DNA from: Bacillota bacterium
Lineage (GTDB): Bacteria; Bacillota; Limnochordia; Limnochordales; DUMU01
Assembly (NCBI GenBank): GCA_012839805.1
Contig: DUMU01000009.1
Span: forward strand, 1 to 47,068
Length of the DNA stretch: 47,068 nucleotides
Reading direction: 5' to 3'
The notes beneath the pieces are model-generated. The model saw nothing but the letters and a program-made list of their open reading frames with translations, did no database searches and was not told the origin of the DNA. Shown here one piece after another: positions 4,365-41,219 of this stretch. The translations under genes and the position numbers were made by a program. The first letter of the stretch is position 1. Every line of letters starts with the position of its first letter.

Positions 4365-4372
4365 CGATAGCC
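4365..4372 (+). repeat. 8-bp target duplication of IS256 (right copy)
   Basis: CGATAGCC, identical to 2987-2994. Confidence 0.85.
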
Positions 4373-5355: not shown

Positions 5356-5384
5356 CCTGGTGTGCGCTATCGCACGCATCCAGG
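5356..5384 (-). ncRNA. Hairpin in IS110 upstream region, possible part of a bridge RNA
   Basis: CCTGG-T-GTGCG-CTAT-CGCAC-GCAT-CCAGG folds into a two-part stem: five pairs, a bulge, then five pairs closing a four-base loop. It lies 31 bases upstream of the IS110 transposase start, inside the element's non-coding left region. In IS110-group elements this non-coding region is transcribed into the bridge RNA that pairs with target and donor DNA. The hairpin is seen; its role is inferred. No loop complementarity to target could be tested because the ends are uncertain. Confidence 0.35.
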
Positions 5385-9592: not shown

Positions 9593-9783
9593 TTCCTGAG
9601 GGCCGGGGGTGCGCACGGTTGGTATTCGCAAACGCTTAGCGTCGGCCGATCGGTCGACGGGCCGGGGCACGATACGTATAGGTGCCCGGTCTGGTTTTGG
9701 CACTCTACTAGCATTTGATATATAGACATAATCACTGCCAATGTTTACCATTGCCCTTTAGCCAGTCAGGGGGGTGGGGCCAG

Positions 9784-9843
9784 GTGCATTGCCGTCGACA
9801 GCCGTAACCGGATCGTCGGCCAGGATGGAAACCATGGGCATGG
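9784..9843 (+). pseudogene. Short duplicated manC C-terminal segment
   Basis: GTGCATTGCCGTCGACAGCC and CGTCGGCCAGGATGGAAACC repeat, with a few changes, manC positions about 9365-9415 (cVAVDSRNcIVGQDGNyG). Only about 20 codons remain, with no start or stop of its own. It lies 190 bases downstream of the gene it copies. Confidence 0.75.
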
Positions 9844-9977
9844 CGTTTCGGCGTGGTAACATACGCCTACTTGATGAGAACGTGATCCCGCAAAGTGGGT
9901 TGCCTGCGATCACCTGTTCGGTTACAATAGAGCCGGACTTACTGGTTTCGGCTGGCAGCTAACGGGGGGTGGGCGGG

Positions 9978-10085
9978 CTGCACGAAGTGCGGGACCCCAT
10001 CCACGGGTTCATTAGCATTGCCGAGGCCGGGGCGTTCGTGCCCACTTAGCCGGGTTCGACGCGGTTGCAGAGCCTCGGCCAGCGC
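9978..10085 (+). pseudogene. Possible HD-phosphohydrolase N-terminal scrap
   Basis: One frame reads LHEVRDPIHGFISIAEAGAF and then stops. Some codons later come PGSTRLQSLG-like residues. dNTPase-type HD proteins open with h-e-i-r-D-P-i-H-G-f-i and later have Y-P-G-A-t-H-t-R-F-e-H-S-l-G. The match is short and compressed, so this is a weak call. The rest of 9593-10281 holds GAGCCCGG-rich low-complexity DNA at about 10085-10170 and no gene. Confidence 0.35.
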
Positions 10086-10281
10086 CTGAGCCCGGTCGTG
10101 AGCCCGGTCCGCCCCCCGGCCGTAAACCCGTGCCAGAGCTGAACGTGAGCCCGGACTCGAGCCCGGGCGGAAGTCGAGCAGAGTTGAGCCGTGACGATCG
10201 GCCCGTTATCGGCGGACGGCAGGTTCGAGGTCGTGGTCGAGGGTGTCGTCAGAGGCATCTTATGAGAAAGGTCAGGAGACG

Positions 10282-11460
10282 ATGGCGGAGCACGAGCAAG
10301 AGCACAAGCACGAGCAGGACCCCACTCACGAGCAGGAGCCTGAGCAAGAGCAAGAGCAGGAGCAAGAGCAACAACAACGGCAGCAGGCAGCGATCGAGTG
10401 GCATTCGCCGGCGGAGAAACCGTTCCGGCTTACCGGTTTCCCGTGGTTTGAGCAGGACCGGGTTTACCGCCGGTTGCCGGTCAAGCCGGATTATCCGATC
10501 CGGCCGGAGGTCGACTGGCTCGCCAACCACACCGCCGGGGGGCAGATTGCCTTCCAGACCGACAGCCGGCAGATCTGGGTCAAAGTCCGCCTGCGAGCCC
10601 CCGCCGACATGAACCACATGCCCGCCACCGGACAATGCGGTTTTGACCTGTACCTGGGCCGTCCGGGTGAGCAGAGGTTTTACGGCGTCACCAAGTTCGA
10701 TCTGAAGGCGACGAGCTACGAGTACAAGTTGCTCGAAACGGGGGCGGCTGCCGCCGGGCTCAAGGCGGTCACCCTCAACTTCCCGCTCTATCAAGGCGTA
10801 GAAGAGGTGTTGATTGGCCTTGACGCCGGCGCGCAAGTGTTGCCCTTCCCAGCGTACGCCTACAGAGGTCGGTTGATCTTCTATGGGACGTCCATCACCC
10901 AGGGCGGTTGCGCCTCGCGCCCCGGCATGGCCTACACCAACATCCTGAGCCGGCGTCTCAACATCGAGACCGTAAACCTTGGATTCTCCGGCAATGGCAG
11001 GGGCGACCCTGAACTGGCCAAGCTCATCGCCCAAATCCCCAACCCCCGGTTGCTCGTCCTCGACTACGAACCCAACTGCGTCAGCACCGAACTGCTGCGG
11101 GAGACGCTGCCACAGTTCATCCGCATCTATCGGGAAGCACACAGGCGCGTGCCCATTCTGGTAGTATCGCGCATCCCGTATGCGCACGATCTCGTACACG
11201 AGGATGTGCTGCAGGCACGTGAGGAGCGAGGGGAGTTTCAGCGCCAGACGGTCAAAATGTTCCGGTCGAGCGGCGATGCCAACATCTTCTTTTATGATGG
11301 TTCGACGTTACTGGGCGACGACTTCGACGAGTGCACGGTCGATGGCATCCATCCGACCGATCTTGGTTTCCTGCGCATCGCCAACGGCCTCGAGCCCGTG
11401 CTGCGGGGGATCCTGGGTGCTCCGATTCCGGCTGCTCCGAGAAGCGTGCGTTCCAGCTAA
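10282..11460 (+). CDS. SGNH/GDSL-type esterase with a Glu/Gln-repeat N-terminus
   Basis: 392 residues from ATG 10282, preceded by GGTCAGGAGACG. Residues 1-36 are almost wholly E, Q, H and P (EQEPEQEQEQEQEQQQRQQ). The folded part starts near 40 with a beta-sandwich domain containing CGFDLYLGRPGE, the GxDLY module. The hydrolase domain follows: nucleophile serine in FYGTSITQGG, block II in NLGFSGNGRG, a DYEPN strand, and the acid/base pair in DGIHPTDLG. Proteins of this architecture are predicted carbohydrate or lipid esterases. No signal peptide is visible, because the charged repeat occupies the N-terminus. A decayed second copy lies at 37821-38400 next to namZ. Confidence 0.85.
   Translation: MAEHEQEHKHEQDPTHEQEPEQEQEQEQEQQQRQQAAIEWHSPAEKPFRLTGFPWFEQDRVYRRLPVKPDYPIRPEVDWLANHTAGGQIAFQTDSRQIWVKVRLRAPADMNHMPATGQCGFDLYLGRPGEQRFYGVTKFDLKATSYEYKLLETGAAAAGLKAVTLNFPLYQGVEEVLIGLDAGAQVLPFPAYAYRGRLIFYGTSITQGGCASRPGMAYTNILSRRLNIETVNLGFSGNGRGDPELAKLIAQIPNPRLLVLDYEPNCVSTELLRETLPQFIRIYREAHRRVPILVVSRIPYAHDLVHEDVLQAREERGEFQRQTVKMFRSSGDANIFFYDGSTLLGDDFDECTVDGIHPTDLGFLRIANGLEPVLRGILGAPIPAAPRSVRSS
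10285..10390 (+). repeat. 6-bp in-frame repeat (GAGCAR) at the SGNH gene start
   Basis: Units of GAGCAG/GAGCAA/GAGCAC encode alternating Glu with Gln or His. About fifteen imperfect units end in CAACAACAACGGCAGCAG. Confidence 0.9.
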
Positions 11461-11699: not shown

Positions 11700-13230
11700 C
11701 CTCTACGAGACCGTCCAAGAAATAATCTCCAGGGACGAGGAAAAGGAGCAGCGCATGGCGAATTCCTCCAACATGAGCAAGCGATACAAGGACTATCAGC
11801 CTGACCAGATGATGCTGTTGCCTCCTTCCCTGGAGGAATGGTTGCCGGAGGGTCACCTCGCCCGCTTCATCAATGACGTCGTTGACGAGATGGACCTCTC
11901 CCGCATCACACGCTGGTATGAGAAAGGGCTGAGGGGGCAGCCCCGCTACAATCCGCGGATGATGGTAAAGGTCCTCTTTTACGCCTGGGCGACAGGGACC
12001 CTTTCCTCGCGGCAAATCGCCCGGCGTCTTTACGACGATGTCGCTTTCCGGTATCTATCGGCCAATACCCGGCCCGATTTCCGCACGATCAACAACTTCC
12101 GCCAGCGCCATAGAGACGAGATGATGCACCTCTTCGCTCAATTGGTACAGGTGGCAGTCAAGGCTGGTATAGCCACGTTGCGCCACATCAGTGTGGATGG
12201 TACCAAGATCAAGGCAAACGCTTCCAAGCACAAGGCCATGAGCTACGGGTGGATGAAGAAAGAGAAAGAAGAGCTGGAAGCGGAGATCAAGGAACTGCTG
12301 GCCAAGGCGGAGGCCATTGACCGGCAAGAGGATGAGGAATTTGGAGCGGACCGTCAGGACGACTTTCCTACGGAGCTGGCCTTCCGGGAGAAGCGGTTGG
12401 CCAAGATCAAGGAAGCCATGACTGCCTTGGAAGCGGAAGCGGCAGCTAAGGCTGAAGAAGGGCACAAGTCTGGGTCAGGCGATCACTCCGATCATCCCGG
12501 CAACTCCACAGCTCCGTCCGATCGGCCCCCGGCAGCGCCAGATCCGAAAGCGCAGCGGAACTTCTCGGACCCGGAGTCTCGCATCATGCTCTCGGCTGAC
12601 AAGGCATTCATCCAGGCCTACAACGCTCAGCTGGCCGTGGATAGCGACAATCAGATTATCGTAGCTGCCCTGGTAACCAACCAGGCCAACGACAAGGGCC
12701 TTCTCACTCCGATGGTGGAAATGACACGGCAGATCGGCGGCCGAGCCGCCGACAAAGTCTCTGCCGATGCGGGATACTTCAACCAAGCCGAACTTCAGGA
12801 GCTGGAAGACAGGGGCATTGACGTGCTTGTGCCGCCTGACAAGATGCGCCATGGTCGCAAGCTGGATCCAGCCCTGAGAGGTCGTATTCCATCGAGCCTA
12901 TCCTATCCCGATCGCACGCGCCGCAAGCTGCGGGCCAAGCGGGGTCGGGAGGGATATGCCAAGCGGATGATAACAGTCGAACCGGTTTTTGGTGAGATCA
13001 AACGTGGGTTGCGCTTTACCCAGTTTCTGACGCGGGGATTGAAGAACGTCAGCGTAGAGTGGATCTGTGTGGCCATCGGCCATAATCTTCGGAAACTGGC
13101 ACTGTTTTCCCGTCATGTCTTGGATACGATGCGGAAGCTCCTGGCAGCAGCTGCGTGGGCATAACGGTGAAGCTGGTCGCGGCCAACCCCCATGCGGGGG
13201 TCGTACGACTGCACCGCAGGTTTTTGAGGT
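11700..13230 (+). mobile_element. IS1182-family insertion sequence, apparently complete transposase
   Basis: Contains an intact IS1182 transposase gene. The left limit is set from similarity between 11700-11755 and the relic at 7710-7770. The right limit is set from similarity between 13165-13200 and the relic at 2640-2700. Terminal inverted repeats and target duplications were not found by eye, so the ends are approximate. Confidence 0.7.
11755..13164 (+). CDS. IS1182-family transposase
   Basis: 469 residues, full family length, ATG 11755 after AAAAGGAGCAGCGC. N-terminal domain: DYQPDQMMLLPPSLEEWLP and RYNPRMMVKVLFYAWATG, then FRYLSANTRPDFRTINNFR. Catalytic region: ISVDGTKIKANASKHKAMSY (first Asp), SADAGYFNQAELQELEDRGI (second Asp), and ITVEPVFGEIKRGLRFTQFL (Glu, Y-(2)-R-(3)-E-like block). 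A charged, variable linker sits at about 160-250. No frameshift is seen, so this is the only transposase in the window that is intact and complete. Fragments of the same family occur at 2640-2745 and 7700-8012. Confidence 0.92.
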   Translation: MANSSNMSKRYKDYQPDQMMLLPPSLEEWLPEGHLARFINDVVDEMDLSRITRWYEKGLRGQPRYNPRMMVKVLFYAWATGTLSSRQIARRLYDDVAFRYLSANTRPDFRTINNFRQRHRDEMMHLFAQLVQVAVKAGIATLRHISVDGTKIKANASKHKAMSYGWMKKEKEELEAEIKELLAKAEAIDRQEDEEFGADRQDDFPTELAFREKRLAKIKEAMTALEAEAAAKAEEGHKSGSGDHSDHPGNSTAPSDRPPAAPDPKAQRNFSDPESRIMLSADKAFIQAYNAQLAVDSDNQIIVAALVTNQANDKGLLTPMVEMTRQIGGRAADKVSADAGYFNQAELQELEDRGIDVLVPPDKMRHGRKLDPALRGRIPSSLSYPDRTRRKLRAKRGREGYAKRMITVEPVFGEIKRGLRFTQFLTRGLKNVSVEWICVAIGHNLRKLALFSRHVLDTMRKLLAAAAWA

Positions 13231-13864
13231 CAACTTTAGCGCTCCGATATGACAGCATGAGCAAGATTAGGAATTCACCTGTCAAGGATCAGGCCAATAC
13301 CTTGGACGGTCTCCTAGCCCGCTGAAACAAAGCAATTGGAACGTACCGGAGCGCGCAACCCACCCCGCGACCGATCCCCCGTGCCACACACTAGGCTCCT
13401 CGCTTGCTGATCTGCCGCCCTGCACGTAACAACCAACAGGCACCGACACACCCCTACTCCGCACCCACGTGAACTAGACCGTTGACGCGGCAGGTCTCGT
13501 GCCCGACTCGAAACACTCTTGCTTACGTGACTATGCATACCCTGCAGAGCAAAAAGATTTACCGGCAGGAATCGGTCTACCAACCACGAAATACCATGGA
13601 GCTGTTTGGATTGTTTGGGCTGATGGTTATCGCAGTGCGTGGGCGCGGGCAACGAGCCCCTGGGATGTCCTGGTACGGTAGCTGGAGTTTGCTGGTAGTG
13701 CCCCCGCGGCGGTGCTGAAGGCCACAACACCGACAACACCGACGAAGAGGCGGGCGAACAGAGTCAGTCAGGGCACCACGCGCCTTTCGGAATCAGGGGG
13801 AATGCCTCAGTTTACTCGAAACCGTGACTAGAGCTCAGTCTGAGGATCTTGTCCGTGAGGCGGT
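13231..13864. other. Gap without a recognisable gene
   Basis: Several open frames exist on both strands but none has a convincing ribosome site, composition or family motif. The region probably contains scrambled IS flank and the lost N-terminal part of the Hsp70-like gene that follows. GACAACACCGACAACACCGA-type short repeats lie near 13728-13742. Confidence 0.5.
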
Positions 13865-14233
13865 GTGATGTCCTATTTGATGAGGTACAAGCAGTCTTGC
13901 TTGTCTCGGTCAGGACCGAAAGCCGGTGATGTTGACTTAGTGTTGATGACCGGAGGGAGTTCTCTATTTACTTTGGCAGACAGGGAAATGCGGCGTTTGT
14001 CTGGAGCGCGAATGGTGTGGCTGGATCGTCTCGATACGACCATCACCGTAGGGGCTGCGCTTCTCGCGCGCAACCAATGGCTGCCGTCCCTGCCCTACCC
14101 TCTATGTGTCCAGCTCTCAGACAATACCCTGCACGAGTTCTTTCTTGCCGGGTTACGTAGTTGGCAGGCGACAATTATGGCAGAGGTACAATGTGAATGG
14201 ATGCATACCGGGTTGAGCGCAAGCTTTGACTAG
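13865..14233 (+). pseudogene. Hsp70-like ATPase, C-terminal remnant
   Basis: The 122-residue frame contains AGDVDLVLMTGGSSLFTLAD (about 21-40) and later TTITVGAALLARN. In Hsp70/actin-fold ATPases the pair d-i-D-x-V-l-l-v-G-G-s-S-r-i-P and v-A-x-G-A-A-x-x-A closes the nucleotide-binding domain. Everything upstream (phosphate-1 and phosphate-2 loops) is missing, so the product would not bind ATP. The frame ends 25 bases before the methyltransferase gene, so an Hsp70-like gene was probably the first member of this operon and was truncated by rearrangement. The family call rests on two short motifs. Confidence 0.5.
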
Positions 14234-14258
14234 AGGATGGCCAGGGAGGTGAACTTCT

Positions 14259-15773
14259 GTGGGTCTGCAAGGGGAATGTGTCGTCCGGCCGCAAGAGGAC
14301 ATTGCGCTTCGCTTGCCATGGCCGGACGCTTGTCGCGATACCTTAGGAGAAGACGAGCTCCTTGAGCAGCATCTTAACGCCAGTCGGAAGTCGGTGTACG
14401 GCGCAATCACCTCCACTGTCGAGGACCTGATCAACAGGTACAAAATACCTGCAGCAGACATCGAAACGGCCCGTGACCGGCTGCATCAATGCTACGTGAA
14501 GGACGACTCGCCAGCAGACTTGTACTGCAGCCCGGCAGCGGTCGTGGCCTACCTTCAGAAATACACCCCAAGGTATGCGGACGCATTTCTTCTAACACTA
14601 CTGCAGCTTGCTCACTGCGGCCTTATTCCATTCCGGCCACGCATACTGGACCTGGGGGCTGGCTGTGGAACGAACTCTTTGGCTCTGATAGCGTTCTTGC
14701 GATCGGTTAGAGCAATGCGAGCCAGTAACTCGAGATTAACGCCCAGTGAGGTAGTCGCTGATTTGACGTCGGTAGACCGTGCGCACTTATTGCTGAAGGT
14801 AAACAGCAGTTTGACAAAGCATGCTTTACGGGAGGCCCCTGAAGTTAAGCTGCGACACACCTTCGTGAGACTGGACTTGCGCAACGATGCCGGATTAGGC
14901 GTGCTGAACAAGAGACTGGGTTCCTTCGATGTCGTCGTATTGTCGAATGTGATGTGTGAACTTCCTCAACTAGATCGTACAGCTGTACTTCGTCGCGTTG
15001 CGGACCTGGTTACCACGGAAGGGACGGTTGTCATCATTGATCCTGCTCAAGCTGGTCCGAAGTTCGCGGGAGTACGTCGAGCCTGTTTTGCTGCATCCGC
15101 TGTTGGATTGAACGTCTACGGTCCGTGTTTTGGAGACTGCGTCGGATCTCACGATTGCTGGGCGTACATGAGAGTCCCGACAACATCGCTAGATGGGACG
15201 GCGGAAGAGGTGCGTTATTCAGTTTGCGTTTTGCGACGCGATGGACTGTTTCGGTCTCAGCGGCCCAAGCAGCTGCCCGCAGTTCGGTTGAACGTTCCCA
15301 TGAAACTGGATTTACAGGTATTGGTTATCGCTGACGTTGCGAAGCACGATTCTTATAAGGTTTGTGTGGGTAAAGATGTAGAGCGTGGCAGGGAGATATG
15401 GCTAAGGAAAAGGACGGAGCTCGGTGAGCTCAAGACGGGCTGGGTGTACAGGTTAGTCTCGGATAACGCGGTGTGGTCCATCAAGTCATCGCCCGCGGAA
15501 CACTACGAACTTGATCTGGGAGAAGGTGGCAAGGCCGAGCCTTGCCCCTGCTCTCGGCGTACGGTGGGTCCGGGCTTGCGGGTTGACCACGAGACTTTCG
15601 GTCCCGGTACACTGGTTGATGTAAGCCACGGATGCTACGGGACGGCGCAGTTCATTCCAGACGGAGGTCGGGTGCCCAAGCGTTTGCACCTTCGTTCGTG
15701 TTTCAATCGTCTCTACTTGCGCCGTATCGATCAGCTACCCGAAGGGGGACCAAGAGATGATAGTGAGCGCTAG
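14259..15773 (+). CDS. SAM-dependent methyltransferase (Rsm22-like) with Tudor/KOW-like C-terminus
   Basis: 504 residues, GTG 14259 after AGGGAGGTGA. A helical N-terminal region with DLYCSPAAVVAYLQKYTPRY (about 88-107) precedes a Rossmann methyltransferase: RPRILDLGAGCGTNSLAL (126-143, SAM loop), a DLTSVDRAHLLL acidic strand, FDVVVLSNVMCELP (about 223-236, motif IV region) and VVIIDPAQ. This arrangement recalls Rsm22-type methyltransferases, although their cysteine cluster is not clear. Residues about 445-490 (HETFGPGTLVDVSHGCYGTA, then a hydrophobic strand) resemble the small beta-barrel at the C-terminus of UvrD/PcrA helicases, which suggests nucleic-acid or polymerase contact. It overlaps the DUF1848 gene by 17 bases. 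The substrate is unknown. Confidence 0.75.
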   Translation: MGLQGECVVRPQEDIALRLPWPDACRDTLGEDELLEQHLNASRKSVYGAITSTVEDLINRYKIPAADIETARDRLHQCYVKDDSPADLYCSPAAVVAYLQKYTPRYADAFLLTLLQLAHCGLIPFRPRILDLGAGCGTNSLALIAFLRSVRAMRASNSRLTPSEVVADLTSVDRAHLLLKVNSSLTKHALREAPEVKLRHTFVRLDLRNDAGLGVLNKRLGSFDVVVLSNVMCELPQLDRTAVLRRVADLVTTEGTVVIIDPAQAGPKFAGVRRACFAASAVGLNVYGPCFGDCVGSHDCWAYMRVPTTSLDGTAEEVRYSVCVLRRDGLFRSQRPKQLPAVRLNVPMKLDLQVLVIADVAKHDSYKVCVGKDVERGREIWLRKRTELGELKTGWVYRLVSDNAVWSIKSSPAEHYELDLGEGGKAEPCPCSRRTVGPGLRVDHETFGPGTLVDVSHGCYGTAQFIPDGGRVPKRLHLRSCFNRLYLRRIDQLPEGGPRDDSER

Positions 15774-16788
15774 TCGGCGCACGGATATCCCGAGATTTTA
15801 CTCAACCTGGTTTATGAACCGCATTAGAGCGGGATACTGTACCTACCCCAATCCGTTCAATCGTAATCAGGTGGTGCAGGTCTCGCTGAAGCCGGAAGAT
15901 GTGGACGTGATTGTCTTCTGGACCAAGAATCCGCGGCCATTAATGCAGCACCTGCAGGAGCTGGATGAACGTGGATACCGCTATTACTTCCAATTTACCG
16001 TAAATGGTTACCCGCGGCAGATCGAGCCGCGGGTGCCCACGTTGGAGGAATGCATCGACACGTTCAGAGAGCTAGCACGGAGGGTGTCACCGCAACGGGT
16101 TATTTGGCGTTACGACCCGATTATATGGGCCGCAGCCTTCGATGAAGGTTATCACTTCAACATGTTCGCTCGGATTTCTGCTGCTCTCCGGGGCTATACG
16201 GAACGGGCTGTTATCAGTCTTGTCGACGATTACCGGGGGGCGTGGAAGCGCATGAGCACAATCGAGGGACTCAGACCATGCACTCCGGAGAGTCCGGGAG
16301 TCGCCTCACTCCTACGCAGAATGAGTGACTGTGCCCGTGCTGCCGGTATGGAGATTGTGTCTTGTGCAGAGCCATATGATCTCCAGGACTTCGGAATACG
16401 GCCGGGTAAGTGCATCGATGAGGAGCTTATTCAGCGGGTCTTTGGTATTCGGGTATCGGCTGACAAGGATACAGGGCAGCGCCAGGCTTGCGGTTGTATA
16501 CTCAGCCGGGATATCGGCGTTTATGGTACTTGCCGCCACGGCTGCGTTTACTGCTATGCTGCTGGTCTTCCGGGCCTCAAGCTAGAGCACCACGATCCGG
16601 ACTCCCCGTCCTTGGTGGGCCGCTATGAGGCTAATCCGTCTGCTCTCCCGGTACAAGACTCACCGTCGGGTGCCCCAGAGATAGCTCCAGTGCAACACCA
16701 GCTTCCCTTGCTGCTTGACGAACCGGCTTCGAGGAGCTGTGAGAACGTCAATCGTTATCTTGATGAAGGGAGATGTGAGCTCAAATGA
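15757..16788 (+). CDS. DUF1848 family cysteine-cluster protein
   Basis: 343 residues, ATG 15757 inside the end of the methyltransferase gene and after GAAGGGGGACC. The N-terminus MIVSASRRTDIPRFYSTWFM is characteristic of DUF1848, as are VFWTKNPRPLM, YYFQFTVNGYPR, RVIWRYDPII and, at about 243-266, CGCILSRDIGVYGTCRHGCV followed by YCYA. The C-x-C and C-x3-C-x2-C cysteines form the pattern expected to hold an iron-sulfur cluster. The family shows remote similarity to radical-SAM-like TIM barrels (related to SplB-type proteins), but no function is established. The last 70 residues are variable. It overlaps the helicase gene by four bases, so coupled expression is likely. Confidence 0.88.
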   Translation: MIVSASRRTDIPRFYSTWFMNRIRAGYCTYPNPFNRNQVVQVSLKPEDVDVIVFWTKNPRPLMQHLQELDERGYRYYFQFTVNGYPRQIEPRVPTLEECIDTFRELARRVSPQRVIWRYDPIIWAAAFDEGYHFNMFARISAALRGYTERAVISLVDDYRGAWKRMSTIEGLRPCTPESPGVASLLRRMSDCARAAGMEIVSCAEPYDLQDFGIRPGKCIDEELIQRVFGIRVSADKDTGQRQACGCILSRDIGVYGTCRHGCVYCYAAGLPGLKLEHHDPDSPSLVGRYEANPSALPVQDSPSGAPEIAPVQHQLPLLLDEPASRSCENVNRYLDEGRCELK

Positions 16789-19700
16789 GGGTGACTGAGA
16801 TACCCCGATTCACAAACCATATGGCAAAGCACGGTCTTACCCAAGCGTGGCAGGATCTGAAACGGCGGCTCCAGACTTCCGGGCCTGAAGGTTCCGAGTT
16901 GTTCGAACCGCTGGGTGCCTCCCGGCTCGTTAAGAGGAGGCTTGGTAACTGGCGGCTGATCGGGCTAATGCTTCAGGAGTCTGGCCATCCAGTTCTTTGC
17001 ATGGTGGACATGGTCGCTAGGGATGACCCACGGTATAGGCAATTATGCTCAGACCCCGAGAAATTCGAGGCCATGTACTTCAAAGAGAAGGATGTCCAAG
17101 ACTTTGTGAAGGATTGCACCCGTAAGGGCGTTGAGATTGCAGTAGCCGTAGAGCCTAAGGTTGAAGATATACGTCGGCTTCCACCCAGTTACGAGGCCTG
17201 GTTTGATCCCCCGGGTATCACACTTGAGCCGTGCGATGATGATGCAGTGTATGAGGGTGCCGGGTGGGTGAACGCGTTTCGCTCCAGGGAGATAGACGAC
17301 TACTGGCAGGATTACCACAAGATGGTGTCTAAAATCGCAGATGACCGATCGACAGGTCGCCCGGTCTCACCCAAGCATCCTTGGCTGCTCGTCTACTCGG
17401 AGGGAAGCAGAGGTGTTCTCTTTGCCCGAGTCATACTAAGCGATCAAGCCTCCAGGCGTGTGCTATTTTTATTGCGGCCGATCGCTAGGACCGGTGGCGC
17501 GGACACGCTGCAAGATGATAATCTGATAGCTCAAGTCACAGATATTGTTGATACCACCGCCTTGGCGGAGCTCGCGAAACCGACATCTGGTGACGAAATA
17601 AGTCTTACGTCCGATCAAACGGCAGGGTGTGCAGCACGCGCCTATCCAGCATACGTTCTTGCAGACCCCGACGTCTGGCGCGCGATACAGAGGGACGACC
17701 CATTCGCAGGGCAGCCAGGCGGATTGGCAAACATCGCCCTCTCAGGCGAGGAAGAGCAAATACTACGAAGCGTCACATACAATCGCAACGGAGGGTTCCC
17801 TCTGTTTATCAACGGCAGAGCCGGGAGCGGTAAGTCGACCTTACTACTATACCTGTTTGCTGACTATTGCTACAAGAAGCTGACACACCCTGGGATTGCA
17901 GGTACGCCACTATTCTTGACTTACAATGACCGCCTGCTCAACGCTGCTGCAGATACTGTTGCACGAATCATTAAGAGTCATCATACCTTTGCAGTCAGGA
18001 GCAGCGCAGGCAGCGACCATCGAGACGAGAAGGCAATCCGGACCGAGATCCAGAGCTACTTCCGTAACTTCCGGGAGCTCATGCTATCGTTCTTGCCTCC
18101 CGAAGACCGAAACAGCCGCTTCGCACCCGGCAAGCACATGTCGCTACGACTGTTCAAGGACCTATACAAACCCAGCGATACGCTTCCTAGCCGCTACAAC
18201 AGGTGGAAAATGAAGTTACCCCATATTGACTGGTCGCCAGAACTATGTTGGTACGTAATCCGCACCTTCATAAAGGGCACGCCAGCCGCGGGGTACCTTG
18301 ACCCGGACGCCTACTCAAGGATACCGAAAAGAGACAAAGTAGTCCCCGAGATCGAATACGAGAAAATCTATAATACAGTCTGGGAACGGTGGTACAAGGA
18401 CTTGACATGTGGTGAAGGGGCCCCCTTCTGGGACGATCAAGACTTAGTGCGCCAGGTTATCTCGTCAGACGGGCTGCAGTCAATGCCGGAATATACCGCA
18501 ATATTTTGCGACGAAGCCCAGGATTTCACGAGACAAGAGCTTCGCGTCATCCTACGCTTATCAGTCTTGCCACGATTTGAAGTCCATTGCCGGGATAGGG
18601 TTGGTTTTCCGTTTGCTTTTGCTGGCGACCCGCTGCAAACCCTCAATCCTACAGGGTTTAGGTGGGAAAGTCTTAGAGCCGCGTTCTTTGAGACCTTAAT
18701 ACAGCCTCTTGTTGATAAAGGGCTGAAAACCCGGGACATGAACTGTCAAGAGTTGCATTTCAACTATCGTTCGGCCGCGCCAATAGTTCATTTGTCTAAC
18801 TTAGTTCTTCTATGGCGATCGGTACTGTTCCGAATTCCCAAGATCAGCCCGCAGCAAGCGTTCCTCATGCGAAAGCAAGTAGAGTGCGTACCTCTGAAGT
18901 TCGTGATCGGTGACAATATTACTGTAGATCAGCTGGCACGTCACATTCAAAACACGGTTATCATTGTGCCTGCTGAGGAGGGCGAGGAGGCGCGTTTTGT
19001 TGAAATGGATCCGGAGCTTAAGAAGGCTCTAGCTGTTGAGAGGGGAGCAGATTCAACGAACAAGAACGTGTTCAGTCCGATGAGTGCAAAGGGACTTGAG
19101 TTCGATCGGGTTATTGTTTACAAATTTGGTGAGTATATGCCGCCTTCTGCATTCAAGGGTAGCGAAGACGAAAAGCAAGCGATGAGTAGCGAGTTCTTCT
19201 TTAACAGGTTGTATGTTGCACTGACCCGGGCTAAAAAGTATTTGTTTATAGTTGACACCGTGGAAGGAGACAGGAAGTTATGGCAGCAGTGCGTTCCAGA
19301 GAAGAGGATGGAGTTCTTGGAGCGCGGCAAGGAACTTGGGTGGTGCGATGGGGATGCAGCTCTGCTGGGCGAACCGCAGAAGGGTACTCAAGAAGAAATC
19401 CTGGGTATGCAGGAACTGAACCCGGTCGGCGTCGCTAAGGTTCTTGAAAGTGAGGGGAGAGAGACGAATAACCCCGATTTGCTGCGTCGCGCGGCCCGGT
19501 ACTATGAGGATGCCGGGCAGGAAGCCGAGGCATCCGCGTGCAGGGCGCTTGCGTACGAACTATGTGAGCAATGGGGGAAAGCTGGAGATGAATACCTTAA
19601 GCAACGACAAGTGCGTGCTGCGGTGAGATGCTATAGGCGGGGATGTCTGTTCGGAAAGCTGGTTGACACATACGTCACGTTTGTGCCTGCGAATGAGCGC

Positions 19701-21248
19701 GATGAGGACTACAGGCTGGCAAGATTCATGACTGGGGACTCTCGTGACTCGTCGACATCGGTAGCGTTCGCGGAGGTTATTGTCGATATGGTTGAGGACG
19801 GCCGTTTGGATGGCAAACTAGGCCTGGTATGGTGGCAAAAGGGTATCGAGAGGTTTGTTGCTACAGTCCAGAGTCTGGTCAGTAGCCAGAGAGAAAGCGT
19901 GCTCGATCGGAAGGCCTGGGATGTCTTGGCCGCGGCAATCGCAGCCCTCAGAAAAGGTGGTGTGAACGCTCCGGATGGATGTGCCAGCCTGACCTCGTTG
20001 GAGGCAGGCTGCGCCTACAAGGGGGAGCGTTATGAAAAGGCAGTAAGACTGTGGGAGGAGGTCGGGGGTCCGCGCCGAGAGGAGTATTGGCACGCGAAAG
20101 CTATGATTACGAGCATGCCTGAGCGCGTGTTGTATCTTGGTAAGGCGGGGATGGACGAGCAGTTGCTGGCGCTGTGGGAAACCTATCCCCACAAAGCTGA
20201 AGCGAGTCGGGAGGTTGTTAGGGAAGTAGCTGGAGCGATGCATCGCTCCGGGCGTTACAGGGACGCATTCCGTATGTACTTTGAGCTGGGTGATCTCGCG
20301 TCGGCACAGGCTTGTATGTCTGATGCACTGAGAAAAGGGCAGCGCGTACTGACGGAGATCGCGATGTTAGCCAAGGCTGGTGTGTACCAGGGGAAGTGGG
20401 ACGAGTTACCCACCGACGGTCTTGGAGACTTGCGCGCTGATGTTAGCCTTGATGAGGATGCGATCATGGCGATCGCTCGCCTTGTGGCTAGTTGTGCATC
20501 GCCGACAGGGCTACACCAAGCCTCGCTACGGACACGAAAGGCCATCACCGCCTGCTGCCGGATCTTGCTTGGACAACCTTCGTGGCAGTCGTACATTGCG
20601 CCCCAGAATTTGGGTGCGGTCCTTGAGCAGGCGGCTGAATACAAGGACACGTTACAGTTCTACGAGACCTTCACAAGATCCAGTGATGAAGAGCTACGGC
20701 AGTTTGCTCGCCTGCGTTGGCTCAAGGTAAAGCAGCGTCAAGTTGAGAACTCTAGGAAACAGACAGCCAATTCGCACGATTTCAGGAGGCGGTACGAAGA
20801 CGAGCTCTGGAGGAGGTGTGAAATGTGGGGGATTAAACGGGAGGAATTGGCTAAACTTCCTGAATACCCGGAATGTCACGTTGTTAACCGCGCGGGGAGC
20901 CAGCCGCGAATAGTTGGGTTGCCTGATGGAGTAGCACCCGAGTTTAGCGATAACGGGGTGCGTTTTCGTCTGGGGGATACAGTTGTACGAGTAAGACCAG
21001 CATGGCTGTTTCTTTCCAACAATGACACCGGGCAAGCGATTAAGGTCATGTTTGACTCTGCGCAAGTGACGGGTACCGATGAGGTCCAGATAACCCGTGA
21101 AGGTGAAAACTGTATTTGTGTGGTTTGTCAGGACTCGTCGGTCCGTTGTCGCGTTACAACGTCAGCACATGAGAGGTATATCGTTCTTACCTTAGCTGGT
21201 CACACCGTTCATATTTGGCTGCCCCGGTCTCTGAATTGTGGCAGCTGA
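16785..21248 (+). CDS. Very large SF1 (UvrD/Rep-like) helicase with TPR-like C-terminal half
   Basis: 1487 residues, ATG 16785 overlapping the DUF1848 stop. Residues 1-310 form an unassigned N-terminal domain. Helicase motifs: Walker A INGRAGSGKSTLLLYL (about 342-357), Walker B YTAIFCDEAQDF (about 568-579), motif III FAGDPLQTLNPTGFRWESLR (about 610-629), motif IV region LHFNYRSAAPIVHLSNL (about 658), motif V SAKGLEFDRVIVYKFGE (about 767) and motif VI RLYVALTRAKKYLFIVD (about 808). Residues 870-1390 are alpha-helical, with repeated A-x-x-Y/W patterns such as AARYYEDAGQEAEASACRAL that look like TPR or SPOR-type helical repeats. The last 90 residues form a beta-rich end. All ATPase motifs are intact. 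The length is about twice that of UvrD. It acts with the methyltransferase and DUF1848 proteins by context. Confidence 0.88.
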   Translation: MRVTEIPRFTNHMAKHGLTQAWQDLKRRLQTSGPEGSELFEPLGASRLVKRRLGNWRLIGLMLQESGHPVLCMVDMVARDDPRYRQLCSDPEKFEAMYFKEKDVQDFVKDCTRKGVEIAVAVEPKVEDIRRLPPSYEAWFDPPGITLEPCDDDAVYEGAGWVNAFRSREIDDYWQDYHKMVSKIADDRSTGRPVSPKHPWLLVYSEGSRGVLFARVILSDQASRRVLFLLRPIARTGGADTLQDDNLIAQVTDIVDTTALAELAKPTSGDEISLTSDQTAGCAARAYPAYVLADPDVWRAIQRDDPFAGQPGGLANIALSGEEEQILRSVTYNRNGGFPLFINGRAGSGKSTLLLYLFADYCYKKLTHPGIAGTPLFLTYNDRLLNAAADTVARIIKSHHTFAVRSSAGSDHRDEKAIRTEIQSYFRNFRELMLSFLPPEDRNSRFAPGKHMSLRLFKDLYKPSDTLPSRYNRWKMKLPHIDWSPELCWYVIRTFIKGTPAAGYLDPDAYSRIPKRDKVVPEIEYEKIYNTVWERWYKDLTCGEGAPFWDDQDLVRQVISSDGLQSMPEYTAIFCDEAQDFTRQELRVILRLSVLPRFEVHCRDRVGFPFAFAGDPLQTLNPTGFRWESLRAAFFETLIQPLVDKGLKTRDMNCQELHFNYRSAAPIVHLSNLVLLWRSVLFRIPKISPQQAFLMRKQVECVPLKFVIGDNITVDQLARHIQNTVIIVPAEEGEEARFVEMDPELKKALAVERGADSTNKNVFSPMSAKGLEFDRVIVYKFGEYMPPSAFKGSEDEKQAMSSEFFFNRLYVALTRAKKYLFIVDTVEGDRKLWQQCVPEKRMEFLERGKELGWCDGDAALLGEPQKGTQEEILGMQELNPVGVAKVLESEGRETNNPDLLRRAARYYEDAGQEAEASACRALAYELCEQWGKAGDEYLKQRQVRAAVRCYRRGCLFGKLVDTYVTFVPANERDEDYRLARFMTGDSRDSSTSVAFAEVIVDMVEDGRLDGKLGLVWWQKGIERFVATVQSLVSSQRESVLDRKAWDVLAAAIAALRKGGVNAPDGCASLTSLEAGCAYKGERYEKAVRLWEEVGGPRREEYWHAKAMITSMPERVLYLGKAGMDEQLLALWETYPHKAEASREVVREVAGAMHRSGRYRDAFRMYFELGDLASAQACMSDALRKGQRVLTEIAMLAKAGVYQGKWDELPTDGLGDLRADVSLDEDAIMAIARLVASCASPTGLHQASLRTRKAITACCRILLGQPSWQSYIAPQNLGAVLEQAAEYKDTLQFYETFTRSSDEELRQFARLRWLKVKQRQVENSRKQTANSHDFRRRYEDELWRRCEMWGIKREELAKLPEYPECHVVNRAGSQPRIVGLPDGVAPEFSDNGVRFRLGDTVVRVRPAWLFLSNNDTGQAIKVMFDSAQVTGTDEVQITREGENCICVVCQDSSVRCRVTTSAHERYIVLTLAGHTVHIWLPRSLNCGS

Positions 21249-21259
21249 TGTGATGTGGC

Positions 21260-21415
21260 ATGACTAAGGAGGTGCAGAGCACGCAGACAGGCAGCATGGC
21301 AAGGCCTTACGGGCAAGCACTTGCTGGGCAAACAGGTCTGATGGAGGAGGTCCACAAGGCTCGTGAACGGACGGTTGAATGGATACTGCAGCAGGAGACG
21401 AGTCCGGGACTTTAG
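21260..21415 (+). CDS. Possible 51-residue ORF after the helicase
   Basis: ATG 21260 lies 12 bases after the helicase stop, and the frame runs to TAG at 21415. The peptide ends in EEVHKARERTVEWILQQETS, an amphipathic helix. An AAGGAGG at 21265-21271 lies inside the frame and could instead serve a later ATG at 21299. No homologue is recognised. It may be a fourth small member of the operon or a chance frame. Confidence 0.35.
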   Translation: MTKEVQSTQTGSMARPYGQALAGQTGLMEEVHKARERTVEWILQQETSPGL

Positions 21416-21439: not shown

Positions 21440-23332
21440 TTGAGAGACTATCGACCGCCATGCGGCCAGGCTGAGGCGGGGACGATGGATGGGGTTGGTT
21501 CACGACTGCGGTCGAGTCTTGGGGGAGGGCTTGCGGTGGAGGGGTCAAGGTCTATGAGGAGTGGGCGTGCCGAGGAACATGGCGGTGGGCATGCCAGTGG
21601 TCATACCAGTGGTCATGCCAGCGGTCATACCAGCGGACACGCCAGTAGCCACGCCCGCGGCGGTGGCTCTGCCGGTGCCGCCCGGGTCACGGCCGTGATC
21701 ATGGCTGGCGGCAAAGGCGAGCGGCTCTGGCCCCGGAGCCGGGCTGCCCTGCCTAAGCAATTTGTTCAGCTGGCGGCAGGGGGTTCGGGTTCGCAGGGCG
21801 GCCGGACGCTGATCCAGGCGACTGTGGACCGCATCTGCCCGCTGGTGGCCCTGGAGGACACCTTCGTGGTCACAGGGAGCGAATGGGCCGGCCTGGTGAG
21901 TGAACAGTTGCCGGAGATCCCGCCCGAGAACGTGATCATTGAACCGGTCGCTCGCAACACCGCACCCTGCATTGCCCTGGCCACGTTCATTATCCGGCAG
22001 CGGTATCGGGGCGAAGACCCGGTCATGGTAGTGCTGCCCGCCGACCACGTCATTCGGGATGATGAGGCCTTCCGATCGGCGTTGCAGGCCGCGGTCAGGG
22101 TGGCGGTCGGCGTGGCCGATGGGGGTTACCGGGCCGCGAGTGAGGAGGAGGTCGCTGACGGGGCGGCGGGAGCAGAGGTTGCCGAGGCGACGGCGGGGGC
22201 AGAGGTGGCAGCTGGGGCAGAGGCGGCTGCGGCGCCAGGGGCGGAGATAGACCCGGCGGGGGCGGAGGGGGCGGCGGCCGCCGAAGTTTCGGCGGGGACG
22301 CCGGCGTCGTACCCTTTGCCCTTACCCCTACCCTATCCTCTCGTGACCCTCGGGATCTGGCCGACGCGGCCGGAAACGGGCTACGGGTACATAAAGATAG
22401 GAAGGCTGCTTGGCAACATTGACGTGCTGTCGGTGTATGAAGCCGCGCAGTTCACCGAGAAACCCGGGGCGGTAGTGGCTCAACATTTCGTGGCCAGCGG
22501 CCGGTACCTGTGGAACAGCGGCATGTTCATCTGGCGCGCCAGCACGATTTGGGAGGCTTTCCGGCGATACATGCCGGAGGTTTACGGGACGTTGGCTCGG
22601 GTTGAGGCGATGGCTACGGCTGCGGCTACCGCCTCGGCTACGTCCATGACTGCAGCCACGTCTGCGGCTGCGTCCATGACTACGGCCACAGCTACGTCCA
22701 CGAGTGCGGCTACGGCTGCGACTACGGCCCCGGCTAAGCCTGGGGGTACGGCCACGTCGACGGCTACGTCCGGAGCTGCGGCCACGTCCACAGCTTCGGC
22801 CACGTCGATGGCCACGCCCACCTTCTTGCCGGGGGCTCGTGCTGCTGGGGCTCTCGCTGCTCCTGGCCCTGCGGGGCCTAGTGCTTCTGACTCTCCCGGG
22901 GATGGGTGGAGCAAGGCCTTCGATGAAGTGTACCGGCAACTGCGGTCAATCTCCATTGATTATGCAATCATGGAGAAGGCGAGGCCGATCATTACCATTC
23001 CGTGCAGTTTCGGTTGGGACGACGTGGGAAGTTGGCCGGCGCTAGAGCGCCTGTTGCCCGGCGACGAACATGGGAACGTCGTCGGGGCCGGGAAGTGCGT
23101 CGTCCTTGACACGCGCAACTGCATAGTAAGCGTCAGCCAGGACCGGGAGCGGGAGGTTCAACCCGGGAGAGGAAGCCGGGAGAGAGGGCAAGAGGCGTCC
23201 CTGAACGGCGAGCGTCACCTACCTCGCTTGATCGCCCTGTTTGGGGTCGAGGACCTGGTGGTGGTGGACACCGAGAACGTTTTGCACGTGCCGCTCATGG
23301 AGGAGAACCCGGGCGAGGCCGAGCCCAACTGA
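21440..23332 (+). CDS. manC: Second mannose-1-phosphate guanylyltransferase, larger repeat inserts
   Basis: 630 residues from TTG 21440 (AGGGAGG seven bases upstream); an ATG at 21485 is an alternative. Same core motifs as the copy at 8030: GGKGERLWPRSRAALPKQFV, VEPVARNTAPCIAL, VLPADHVI, WNSGMFIWRA, ISIDYAIMEKA and GWDDVGSW. Extra sequence appears in four places: an N-terminal extension with Gly-His-Ala/Thr-Ser repeats (about 50-75), an Ala/Gly/Glu insert at about 220-295, a 110-residue Ala-Thr-Ser insert at about 381-490, and an Arg/Glu/Gly insert near the C-terminus. The middle two sit exactly where the paralogue has its Asp-Gly repeats. The core is well conserved, so the inserts are probably surface loops. 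A capD remnant follows immediately. Confidence 0.88.
   Translation: MRDYRPPCGQAEAGTMDGVGSRLRSSLGGGLAVEGSRSMRSGRAEEHGGGHASGHTSGHASGHTSGHASSHARGGGSAGAARVTAVIMAGGKGERLWPRSRAALPKQFVQLAAGGSGSQGGRTLIQATVDRICPLVALEDTFVVTGSEWAGLVSEQLPEIPPENVIIEPVARNTAPCIALATFIIRQRYRGEDPVMVVLPADHVIRDDEAFRSALQAAVRVAVGVADGGYRAASEEEVADGAAGAEVAEATAGAEVAAGAEAAAAPGAEIDPAGAEGAAAAEVSAGTPASYPLPLPLPYPLVTLGIWPTRPETGYGYIKIGRLLGNIDVLSVYEAAQFTEKPGAVVAQHFVASGRYLWNSGMFIWRASTIWEAFRRYMPEVYGTLARVEAMATAAATASATSMTAATSAAASMTTATATSTSAATAATTAPAKPGGTATSTATSGAAATSTASATSMATPTFLPGARAAGALAAPGPAGPSASDSPGDGWSKAFDEVYRQLRSISIDYAIMEKARPIITIPCSFGWDDVGSWPALERLLPGDEHGNVVGAGKCVVLDTRNCIVSVSQDREREVQPGRGSRERGQEASLNGERHLPRLIALFGVEDLVVVDTENVLHVPLMEENPGEAEPN
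21588..21663 (+). repeat. 12-bp in-frame repeat encoding Gly-His-Ala/Thr-Ser
   Basis: About six units of GGTCATGCCAGC/GGTCATACCAGT near the manC 5-prime end. Alternating GCC and ACC codons suggest the original unit was 24 bp. Confidence 0.9.
22605..22815 (+). repeat. 6-bp-based in-frame repeat encoding Ala-Thr-Ser in manC
   Basis: Built from GCYACG hexamers interspersed with TCCATG and TCCACG, giving ATA, ATS and TSA strings. The repeats are shuffled rather than strictly tandem but stay in frame throughout. Confidence 0.85.
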
Positions 23333-23791
23333 CCAACAACATCTTCGGAACGTCGAACGTGGGCCAGACACCGGCCGGGGTGGGGGCAGAGCGCTTGGCC
23401 CTGCTTTGTCCTAAGCAGCACGGGCAAAACGGTCAACCCGGTGAACTGCATGGGCGCGAGCAAGCGGGTGGCCGAGATGATCGTTCAGGCAATGAGCCGG
23501 GGGATGGGGTTGGGCACGGGCAACCGCACCCGGACGCGGTTTGTGGCCGTCCGCTTTGGCAACGTCTTGGGCAGCCGGGGCAGCGTCATTCCGATTTTCA
23601 AACGGCAGATCGCCGCGGGCGGGCCGGTCACGGCCATCCGCCCGGAGATGAAGCGGTATTTCATGACCATTCCGGAGGCAGTTCAGCTGGTGTTGCAGGC
23701 GGGGGCGCTAGGCGAGGGTGGAGAGATCTACGAGACGGTAGAGCCCACACCGCACAAGGACATCGTGAAGCTACAGTGCGGTAGGCGTTAA
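23333..23791 (+). pseudogene. CapD/PglF-type nucleotide-sugar dehydratase, truncated
   Basis: Begins just after the manC stop with [10 protein letters not shown] (part of the k-T-N-v-x-G-T-x-N-v motif), loses frame near 23415, and continues as [37 protein letters not shown] and [17 protein letters not shown]. These are C-terminal motifs of the membrane-linked UDP-GlcNAc 4,6-dehydratase family. The Rossmann GxxGxxG segment and the catalytic centre are gone, and the last residues ([10 protein letters not shown]) diverge from the family. No product is expected. Confidence 0.8.
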
Positions 23792-23879
23792 GGGGTGGGG
23801 CATAGGGACATTGTGTGGTAGACTATTGCTGGGAGCTCAAGCGCCTCCCGGCAGCGGTCAGGAGCGAAAGGTCTCTTCC

Positions 23880-24737
23880 ATGGCACACAGTCCTTTGACG
23901 CGGGAGGCTACTGGCCGTGCCGAGGGTATGGGAACGAGGGATCTGAAGTTGGGCAGGAAACTCCCGAACAAACCGCTCGTCGAAGCGATCGCGGAGCTGA
24001 GGTGGGAGCTACAGCAAGTAGGTCCCGATCAGTTCAAAGACCCGGGTTTCCCTCTGCTGGTAGGGGCCCTCTACGGCCTGCTGAGGAATTCTTACAGCGT
24101 GGCAGAGGAGCTCCCTACCGCCCAGGTACCGGACGAGATGCTCCCTTATGTGGTGAGGTACCGATTCCGAAGGGGCAAGAACAGCTGGCCGCTCGTTCAA
24201 GTCGGTCCAGGAATAGCTACGCTTAACTTCACGAAGGAGTACGATTGGGAGTCGTTTTTGGCGGCTGCTCTTGAGTTTTACGATAAGCTCGTAGAAGCTC
24301 ATCAGGTCCGCTCCGACCATGTGAAGCCCAAGTTCACGAGTATAGTTCTACAATTTATCAATGCAATTCCGGCTGATCCTGCTCAAATGGATGTTCTACA
24401 TTTTGTGTCTTCCAAACTCCACACATCGGTCACCTTGCCCCGCGGCATAACGGAGTCACCTAGTATCGCCGGAGGTGTAACGGGATTCCAGCTCAGCTTG
24501 GCCTATTCGCTTGGGTCTCCGAAGGGTATCGGGGCCATCCGACTGAGTACGGGTAGCCAAAACGAGGTGCCATCACTCTTGTGGCACCTGTACGTCCAGT
24601 CCGTGGAACTGGACGTGCCCCAAGAACGTTCTGCATTCAAGGAGTGGCTAGAACAGGCCCATACCGTTGTTGAAAGCTGGTTCTTTGCCCTCATTGAGGG
24701 AGAGCTTGAGAAACAATTTGGGGGTGATCTGGGGTGA
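23880..24737 (+). CDS. TIGR04255-like protein
   Basis: 285 residues from ATG 23880 (AAAGGTC upstream); ATG 23928 is possible. LPNKPLVEAIAELRWEL near the N-terminus, then an aromatic beta-rich middle with FRRGKNSWPLVQVGPGIATL, and a C-terminal helix FKEWLEQAHTVVESWFFALI fit TIGR04255. That family, sporadically distributed and about 250 residues long, starts l-x-x-P-l-v-E-a-i-f-E-l-r and ends with a helical h-x-x-i-x-x-x-F segment. Its function is unknown. It is the first gene of a coupled trio and overlaps the next by four bases (GTGA). Confidence 0.75.
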   Translation: MAHSPLTREATGRAEGMGTRDLKLGRKLPNKPLVEAIAELRWELQQVGPDQFKDPGFPLLVGALYGLLRNSYSVAEELPTAQVPDEMLPYVVRYRFRRGKNSWPLVQVGPGIATLNFTKEYDWESFLAAALEFYDKLVEAHQVRSDHVKPKFTSIVLQFINAIPADPAQMDVLHFVSSKLHTSVTLPRGITESPSIAGGVTGFQLSLAYSLGSPKGIGAIRLSTGSQNEVPSLLWHLYVQSVELDVPQERSAFKEWLEQAHTVVESWFFALIEGELEKQFGGDLG

Positions 24738-25201
24738 AAGCCGTCGCAGGACTTGACGTCATACTCAGTACCCGCGCGGCCTCGAATATACAAGAGATGA
24801 ACACCTTCGACGACCCCGCTAAATTAGTGCGGCGTGGCCGTCTCGGTCCGGTTTCCTCGGTGACCGTGTCTGCACTGCTGGCACTTCCGTTGCTCACGTC
24901 CTCTATTGGTGCTGGAGGTGGGCCCACCTCCGTAAGTCGGTCAGCGTTTGATGTGGTGGACGAGCTCAACTATTCTACTTGGGCGACGCACCTTTCGTCC
25001 GTTGGTCAAGGCTCAATGCCAGGGAGTATTGTTAGCGCAGTTGTACCACAAGAAGAGCCGCATAACGTGCCGGATGTCCTTGCCGTACGTGTGCCAAGGA
25101 GAGTCATCGCAACGGTTGCGGTTCAGTGGAAACCGGGCACGTTGCCCCGAAGGGCACCATTCATTCGTCCCGACCTGGGGCCTTGGGAGGAAGATGAGTG
25201 A
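24734..25201 (+). CDS. Hypothetical protein with one hydrophobic segment
   Basis: 155 residues from GTG 24734, which overlaps the previous stop. A single hydrophobic stretch SVTVSALLALPLLTSSIGAG (about residues 42-61) could span the membrane once. The remainder is polar, with a proline/arginine-rich tail. No family is recognised. The four-base overlaps on both sides argue that it is a true gene and the middle member of a three-gene unit. Confidence 0.6.
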   Translation: MKAVAGLDVILSTRAASNIQEMNTFDDPAKLVRRGRLGPVSSVTVSALLALPLLTSSIGAGGGPTSVSRSAFDVVDELNYSTWATHLSSVGQGSMPGSIVSAVVPQEEPHNVPDVLAVRVPRRVIATVAVQWKPGTLPRRAPFIRPDLGPWEEDE

Positions 25202-25785
25202 CGCTGCGCTGGTACGCGGAAGTCGGGCCTCAAGAACCGCTTGACCAAGGCGACATCATTGCGCTCTGCCCGGTTGTTTCCTGGAAGGATGCACCGATCG
25301 GTGTCGAGCGCGAGGAGAACGTTCCGGAGTTACTCAAGAACAGCCTCGAGCTGAGTGAGATGGCTGTAGTGGTAATGACTCAGACTTGCGATCTGGCAAA
25401 TGCGAAGGTTAGGAACGTCACCCTTTGCCCCTATTATCCAGTGGACGAGTATCGGAGTGGCTGGGAGGCGGCTCAAAGCATTCAAGGCCGTAATCCAACA
25501 GATAAAACATGGTATGCTTTTCTCGACTCGGTGCGCAAAGGACAGGTCTTTAGTTTGGCGTTGCTCAATTCGGATCCGGAATTGGGAGTACCATTAGCGT
25601 TGGTGGACTTTCAAGAAGTCTTCACGCTGCCGAGGAAATTTCTTGAGTCATACATAGCTGTCACGAGTGAACGAAGAGTGCGTTTGTTGCCTCCGTATCG
25701 AGAACACCTTTCGCAGGCATTTGCAAGGTTCTTCATGCGCGTTGGGCTACCGACGGATATTGACCTTTCTAAGTACCGACGCTAA
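25198..25785 (+). CDS. Hypothetical protein with MTQTCDL motif, third gene of the trio
   Basis: 195 residues from GTG 25198. The middle contains EMAVVVMTQTCDLANAKVRN (about 59-78), followed by VTLCPYYPV. A buried strand ending T/S-Q-x-C-D-L is a pattern I have seen in uncharacterised bacterial proteins, where the Cys-Asp pair looks conserved. The start, EPLDQGDIIALCPVVSW, is likewise a beta strand with a D-Q-G-D turn. No catalytic assignment is possible. By overlap it is co-translated with the TIGR04255-like gene and the membrane-segment protein. Confidence 0.65.
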   Translation: MTLRWYAEVGPQEPLDQGDIIALCPVVSWKDAPIGVEREENVPELLKNSLELSEMAVVVMTQTCDLANAKVRNVTLCPYYPVDEYRSGWEAAQSIQGRNPTDKTWYAFLDSVRKGQVFSLALLNSDPELGVPLALVDFQEVFTLPRKFLESYIAVTSERRVRLLPPYREHLSQAFARFFMRVGLPTDIDLSKYRR

Positions 25786-27835: not shown

Positions 27836-28097
27836 GCTACCCCTCATCCTTTCTTGGCCATAGCGTCGCGTGTTGGTGCTCGACAGCTTGGCTTGGCTTC
27901 CGTCGGTGCGAAATCCAGCTGCCCAACCCTTTTCCGCCTACTCCTTCAGACATTCCCTGCCTTGCCCCCGGCGTGGTAGACTGCTATTGGTGTCTCCTTC
28001 CTTCAGAGGCATTCTTCACCCCTGTTGTACCATAGAGGTGCGATTTCAGTTTCCACGAAACCCGGGATGAGTTTTGGAGGGGGTTTCAAAGACACCG

Positions 28098-41204: not shown

Positions 41205-41219
41205 CTCGTCGTGAGGCTC

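Follow-up and report, generated by a model that had tools for sequence, protein, structure and literature searches.

A methyltransferase–DUF1848 gene pair coupled to a giant SF1 helicase in a candidate defence operon of a Bacillota bacterium

In the window analysed here, the whole 47,068-nt stretch of contig DUMU01000009.1 (assembly GCA_012839805.1, a Bacillota bacterium), three overlapping genes encode an Rsm22-like class I SAM-dependent methyltransferase, a DUF1848 protein and a giant SF1 helicase. Judging from comparison with other genomes, the conserved unit is the pair of methyltransferase and DUF1848, with the helicase as an optional partner. The chances are about even that the operon acts against mobile elements, coupling a SAM methyltransferase and a predicted radical-SAM DUF1848 protein to the helicase, a defence role that we infer from the neighbours of related genes only.

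Operon anatomy and the Hsp70 remnant

The methyltransferase gene (14259-15773, forward strand, 504 aa) begins with a GTG codon preceded by a strong ribosome-binding-like sequence (AGGGAGGTGA) and overlaps the DUF1848 gene (15757-16788, forward strand, 343 aa) by 17 nt, which in turn overlaps the gene of the giant UvrD-like SF1 helicase (16785-21248, forward strand, 1487 aa) by 4 nt. A gap of 25 nt separates the methyltransferase from an upstream ORF of 122 aa that contains an Hsp70-like remnant (13865-14233, forward strand). A sequence-only reading of this DNA had listed the same four ORFs, the gap and both overlaps, all of which were reproduced from the ORF coordinates, its end coordinate of 21415 lying 167 nt past the helicase stop; its proposal that the three large genes are co-translated is supported by the overlap geometry.

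The same reading took the truncated Hsp70 gene as a sign that a chaperone ATPase belonged to the original unit. The match is weak but real, with residues 5-68 of the scrap aligning to positions 283-346 of the 572-position DnaK profile (E 0.016); residues 10-68 also align with full-length DnaKs from many relatives, and a protein encoded on a Calothrix plasmid gives an E-value of 3e-4. What is left is the end of the ATPase domain only, without complete ATPase and substrate-binding domains. A complex that included Hsp70 and whose chaperone gene was later truncated would agree with the short distance to the methyltransferase and with the Hsp70-like proteins known from other systems, CoCoNuTs for example (PMC11090510), but in the other loci the only Hsp70-like genes near the helicase, DUF1848 or the pair were housekeeping dnaK genes in two Planktothrix genomes. 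Hsp70 was therefore rejected as a component, and such a complex is very improbable; with no Hsp70 gene conserved beside helicase or DUF1848, this part of the reading did not hold, and the scrap is probably unrelated debris outside the unit. Direct truncation by the upstream insertion sequence is not supported either, since the element stops at 13317, leaving 548 nt to the scrap in which no Hsp70 sequence was detectable. A lone Hsp70 scrap, with neither helicase nor DUF1848, also occurs in locus L010 (loci are denoted by L and genomes by G).

The three proteins

The methyltransferase consists of an N-terminal helical part, a methyltransferase core at about residues 88-263 with motif I ILDLGAGCGTNSLAL, and a C-terminal extension. 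Pfam matches to Methyltransf_12/23 and Rsm22 were obtained at 1e-4, the score against Rsm22 (PF09243) being 21.6 bits and thus slightly under the curated cut-off of 23; the protein is of class I and resembles Rsm22 without being filed as a member. In profile-profile alignment, residues 88-263 match the methyltransferases of L071 and L128 (E about 3e-6 for a single comparison), and the likeness to other DUF1848-paired methyltransferases is moderate and lies at the profile level. Close homologues were absent from plasmids, from 398 genomes of the window's phylum and from viral contigs. The structure model is poor (pLDDT 42), and for the UvrD-C-terminal-type barrel attributed to this protein earlier, only a weak match to PcrA_UvrD_tudor was obtained (E 0.097).

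The second protein is a certain member of DUF1848 (PF08902, E 8e-102, 341 bits against a cut-off of 30.5) and also matches the PADLOC model RTasDUF1848 (2e-47). The family is present in 126 of the 398 genomes sampled from the phylum, about a third, and a full-text literature search returned no mention of it. The cysteine cluster that had been pointed out earlier is present as a CxxxCxxC motif (C259-RHG-C263-VY-C266) that, together with C203, C219, C245 and C247, does not vary among 28 relatives. This motif is that of radical SAM enzymes but stands at the C-terminal instead of the N-terminal end. The predicted fold is TIM-barrel-like (pLDDT 84), and the eight best structural matches, with Z of 8.3-9.1, all belong to the radical SAM enzymes; Elp3, pyruvate formate-lyase activase and viperin align best, and Cfr is next at 7.8. 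Residues 1-202 align to residues 71-245 of the activase, the barrel that follows the cluster loop, while the CxxxCxxC of DUF1848 (259-266) comes behind this stretch; barrel before cluster motif fits, and on the basis of the model suggests, a circularly permuted radical SAM enzyme. Other TIM barrels reach Z of about 7-8, and values near 8 can be background, so that the radical-SAM reading is a prediction based on Z values modestly above those of other TIM barrels. Foldseek returned generic TIM barrels only; Pfam gives DUF1848 as the only family, and the NCBIfam model rSAM_PA0069 scores far below its cut-off. Spore photoproduct lyase, an expected structural match, is absent among the matches listed, which excludes nothing.

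The helicase has a conserved N-terminal domain (about residues 1-285), a core (about 320-850) with intact SF1 motifs and a UvrD_C match (2.4e-9), a helical-repeat half (about 865-1320) and a beta-rich C-terminus. Over residues 865-1275, the profile of the family finds solenoids of the PPR/TPR type (E 1.6e-11), which bears out at the family level the helical-repeat half that had been read from the sequence. Scanning one genome per species brought up 107 relatives, and 80 loci were retained; complete members are mostly about 1350-1740 aa long and share the N-terminal domain, the SF1 core and the repeat half. The window helicase belongs to this family by full-length homology including the N-terminal domain, the SF1 motifs and the solenoid half. 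Cyanobacterial relatives have the same full-length architecture at 28-41% identity and are mostly solo, with no constant neighbour, no defence genes and, unlike the window, neither methyltransferase nor DUF1848 nearby. Elsewhere a relative adjoins a type III methylase and a restriction gene (L060, type III R-M) or HsdS and HsdR genes (L041), lies between DrmMI-like and DrmA-like genes (L065, DISARM-like) or follows a DUF2326/ABC-3C pair (L089). The helicase thus belongs to a widespread family that has defence-linked members and is not tied to Hsp70. Relatives of the core occur in plasmid records that are named as Shigella/Escherichia (25% identity), many of them virulence plasmids, and one viral contig (L101) carries a relative, the trio being absent there; none was found in phage records.

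A conserved methyltransferase–DUF1848 pair with an optional helicase

Conservation of the neighbourhood beyond this genome, on which the earlier proposal of a system depended, was found in an Acidobacteria MAG (L071, JALWHA010000296), where a giant SF1 helicase, a class I methyltransferase and DUF1848 follow one another on one strand. There the order is helicase, methyltransferase, DUF1848, the methyltransferase is short (332 aa) and the helicase is only 23% identical to that of the window. In the tree the two helicases are not sister but separated by supported branches, and hence the trio either came together on two or more occasions or has been lost repeatedly. A related arrangement is found in L128, a viral/mobile contig on which a methyltransferase, an SF1 helicase and DUF1848 likewise lie in one gene run; in contrast to the window, the methyltransferase also carries a fused NERD nuclease domain, the helicase is small (343 aa) and an extra 807-aa protein precedes DUF1848. 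Across 1.31 Mb of helicase loci, the sole match to the methyltransferase family lies in L071, which carries DUF1848.

The pairing of methyltransferase and DUF1848 recurs in the window's phylum. An HMM built from DUF1848-adjacent methyltransferase genes of viral/mobile contigs was run on the 398 phylum genomes and matched 18, in 14 of which a DUF1848 gene lies within 3 kb, where a fraction of about 0.1% would be expected; the binomial probability is 4e-39, and leaving out the four training sequences gives 1e-27. The four matches without a nearby DUF1848 comprise two weak ones in genomes for which DUF1848 is not listed, one broken frame and G220, a real exception in which the two genes are 35 kb apart. 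Because its training set consisted of DUF1848-adjacent genes, the HMM could miss distant methyltransferases that lack this neighbour. Among the viral/mobile DUF1848 loci, 10 of 33 have a methyltransferase within 1.5 kb, to which L128 adds one in the same gene run; the methyltransferase lies a few bases upstream of DUF1848 in L118, L120, L121-L123, L125 and L127 and just downstream in L138/L139. Of the four-gene unit proposed earlier, methyltransferase and DUF1848 thus stand as the core, the helicase is optional, since its family mostly occurs without the pair, and Hsp70 falls away.

A subgroup of the DUF1848-paired methyltransferases, those of L125 (180-1031), L127 (6084-6989) and L198 (3295-4320), has a short N-terminal Cys cluster (CNHNCKEC, CGNCKQC and CSANCNVC, respectively) that possibly binds metal. 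In L138/L139, the gene directly downstream of DUF1848 (8036-10546) encodes an 836-aa protein with an N-terminal methyltransferase-family match (1.2e-7), and a 721-aa protein upstream reads like DUF262.

Genomic contexts of the pair and of DUF1848

Among the closest described relatives are the UG25-class reverse transcriptases with DUF1848 (PADLOC DRT models RT_UG25 and RTasDUF1848), which, like the window, have an Rsm22-like methyltransferase domain beside DUF1848. In L225/L228, L252 and L253 the methyltransferase forms the N-terminal part of a reverse transcriptase of roughly 880-930 aa with DUF1848 adjacent; PADLOC assigns that of L225 to the UG25 type, and the others match its reverse transcriptase part. 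L251 contains the same fused frame in broken form, with DUF1848 present. In the window, by contrast, the methyltransferase stands by itself, with the giant helicase as third partner; no reverse transcriptase domain was matched in the four ORFs, which places them outside the UG25 DRT class. A second relative is the PADLOC 'methyl transferase' model C3a159, whose name suggests an association with type III CRISPR and which scores 6e-20 for L127, 4e-16 for L198, 3e-6 for L121 and 7e-5 for the window, all DUF1848-adjacent. In L198/L230 the pair adjoins Cmr-like genes, whereas no cas10, cmr or csm gene was found among the part of the window ORFs that was scanned with Pfam. As read from sequence, the pair further lies near apparent Csm1/CARF genes and CRISPR repeat reading frames (L255, L258 and L259) and near apparent type III R-M genes (L257).

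The idea that the locus is an undescribed system is only partly right: the combination of the three genes was not found in a full-text literature search, the main UG/Abi RT paper lying outside the searched text, but its pieces already figure in PADLOC as RTasDUF1848, RT_UG25 and C3a159. The broader suggestion of a nucleic-acid or defence theme is supported by the R-M, DISARM-like, reverse transcriptase and CRISPR neighbours of the helicase family and of the pair. From its occurrence next to reverse transcriptases, next to type III CRISPR genes and on mobile elements, the pair probably serves bacterial immunity as a module for chemical modification. Against defence it must be said that most helicase relatives, those of cyanobacteria, stand alone without defence genes and that many DUF1848 genes adjoin alkylation-repair or Sir2/macrodomain genes instead. 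The separation of the window and L071 helicases in the tree, the lack of a close relative of the window methyltransferase in the 398 phylum genomes, its moderate likeness to the other methyltransferases and the generic Foldseek result for DUF1848 also count against this reading.

The alkylation-repair neighbours bear on a reading as nucleic-acid damage repair, in which DUF1848 would repair lesions by radical-SAM chemistry, much as spore photoproduct lyase does, with helicase and methyltransferase serving repair. Read from sequence, genes of alkylation-repair type stand beside DUF1848 in L119 (Ada-AlkA-Ogt), L195 (AlkA-like), L200 (AlkD-like) and L201 (Ogt), and a DinB-like gene in L106, while the AlkB gene in L102 is annotated. 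Sir2/macrodomain genes are annotated beside DUF1848 in L103 (6313-8942) and were read from sequence in L212, L120 (446-1462) and L144 (4963-5460). Such DUF1848 genes without a methyltransferase speak for repair, as does the radical-SAM-like fold of the model. Yet most of these neighbours owe their repair names to sequence reading, the DUF1848 genes concerned lack an Rsm22-like methyltransferase except possibly in L102 (weak match, 1.8e-9), and the loci that do have one are those with reverse transcriptases, type III CRISPR genes, nucleases and mobile contigs; repair is an unlikely alternative to defence. More doubtful is an arrangement of toxin-antitoxin type, where the methyltransferase would make a harmful modification that DUF1848 reverses in self and where helicase, reverse transcriptase or CRISPR genes would act as trigger. 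The tight pairing in mobile contigs and the repair and macrodomain neighbours of DUF1848 are in line with it, but the gene order varies and DUF1848 without methyltransferase is common, and we consider it improbable.

Proposed role of the operon

If the operon does serve in defence, the helicase would load on DNA or RNA that is invading or aberrant and unwind it, the helical-repeat half would offer a docking surface, and methyltransferase and DUF1848, made together, would add or remodel a modification on the unwound nucleic acid or on host RNA, with the result that the invader is blocked or damaged, host RNA is disabled, or self is marked or protected. SAM enzymes that are made together and recur with polymerases, CRISPR complexes, nucleases and helicases would most simply act on nucleic acid. 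The gene anatomy, the overlaps and the recurrence and placement of the pair are observed directly, whereas the permutation, the joint action, the substrate and the chemistry are, like the defence role, inferred. Going further, the methyltransferase and the permuted radical-SAM DUF1848 might form a general plug-in chemistry module for reverse transcriptase, type III CRISPR, nuclease and giant-helicase immunity that makes, or makes and reverses, a novel nucleic-acid or nucleotide modification, an idea that we advance tentatively and with less confidence than the defence role itself. If it is true, radical-SAM modification chemistry would join bacterial immunity beside viperin-like enzymes, and loci now filed as separate candidate systems would be tied together. 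What merits further attention is this idea of a modification module common to several immune systems, and the near-obligate methyltransferase partner, the radical-SAM-like fold and the shared immune contexts make the chemistry of DUF1848 directly testable.

Genomic setting and a possible chance association

The operon is part of an exopolysaccharide locus. On either side of the island stands a ManC-like gene (8030-9592 and 21440-23332); the two are divergent and contain low-complexity inserts. The second is followed by pieces of a CapD-like sugar epimerase (about 23359-23791), and sugar-nucleotide genes lie downstream (42697-46632). Upstream of the operon, an IS1182-family insertion sequence of 1615 bp (11703-13317, forward strand) carries 17-nt terminal inverted repeats (11703-11719 and 13301-13317, 94%) and a transposase gene (11755-13164, forward strand, NF033551 E 5e-107), and an IS110-type transposase gene (4078-5379) is also close. 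The exopolysaccharide locus and the IS elements, together with the lack of a match to helicase or methyltransferase in the same-genus genome G001, fit a mobile island.

In such an island a solo giant helicase could have landed by chance downstream of a mobile methyltransferase–DUF1848 pair, without any joint action. That the helicase usually occurs without the pair, that the helicases of the window and of L071 do not group as sisters and that the island lies in an exopolysaccharide locus with insertion sequences would all agree with this. Set against it are the 4-nt and 17-nt overlaps, the second, independent occurrence of the trio outside this phylum and the helicase genes that adjoin DUF1848 in L128, L132 and L218, so that chance assembly seems unlikely, slightly more so than repair, and a joint defence role is still preferred.

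Further genes of defence type lie downstream of the operon, namely a GmrSD_N/DUF262 gene (28074-29807, forward strand, E 5e-27) and a gene with weak matches to DUF3800 and PADLOC PDC-M04A (26915-27847, reverse strand). Between these and the operon, three overlapping genes (23811-25785, forward strand) encode a TIGR04255 family protein (E 4e-29) and proteins of 155 aa and 195 aa without matches, and read like a further sporadic cassette, possibly one of defence. In L225 (2238-4154, the same as L228 8737-10653), the UG25-type reverse transcriptase/DUF1848 cassette comes directly after Wzz/CapD-like polysaccharide genes, as if such cassettes shared polysaccharide loci as landing sites. Finally, at 41219-41314 on the forward strand of the window, a stretch of 32 residues in an otherwise unrelated frame is 56% identical to residues 59-90 of the DUF1848 protein and by this similarity appears to be the remnant of a second, broken DUF1848 gene.
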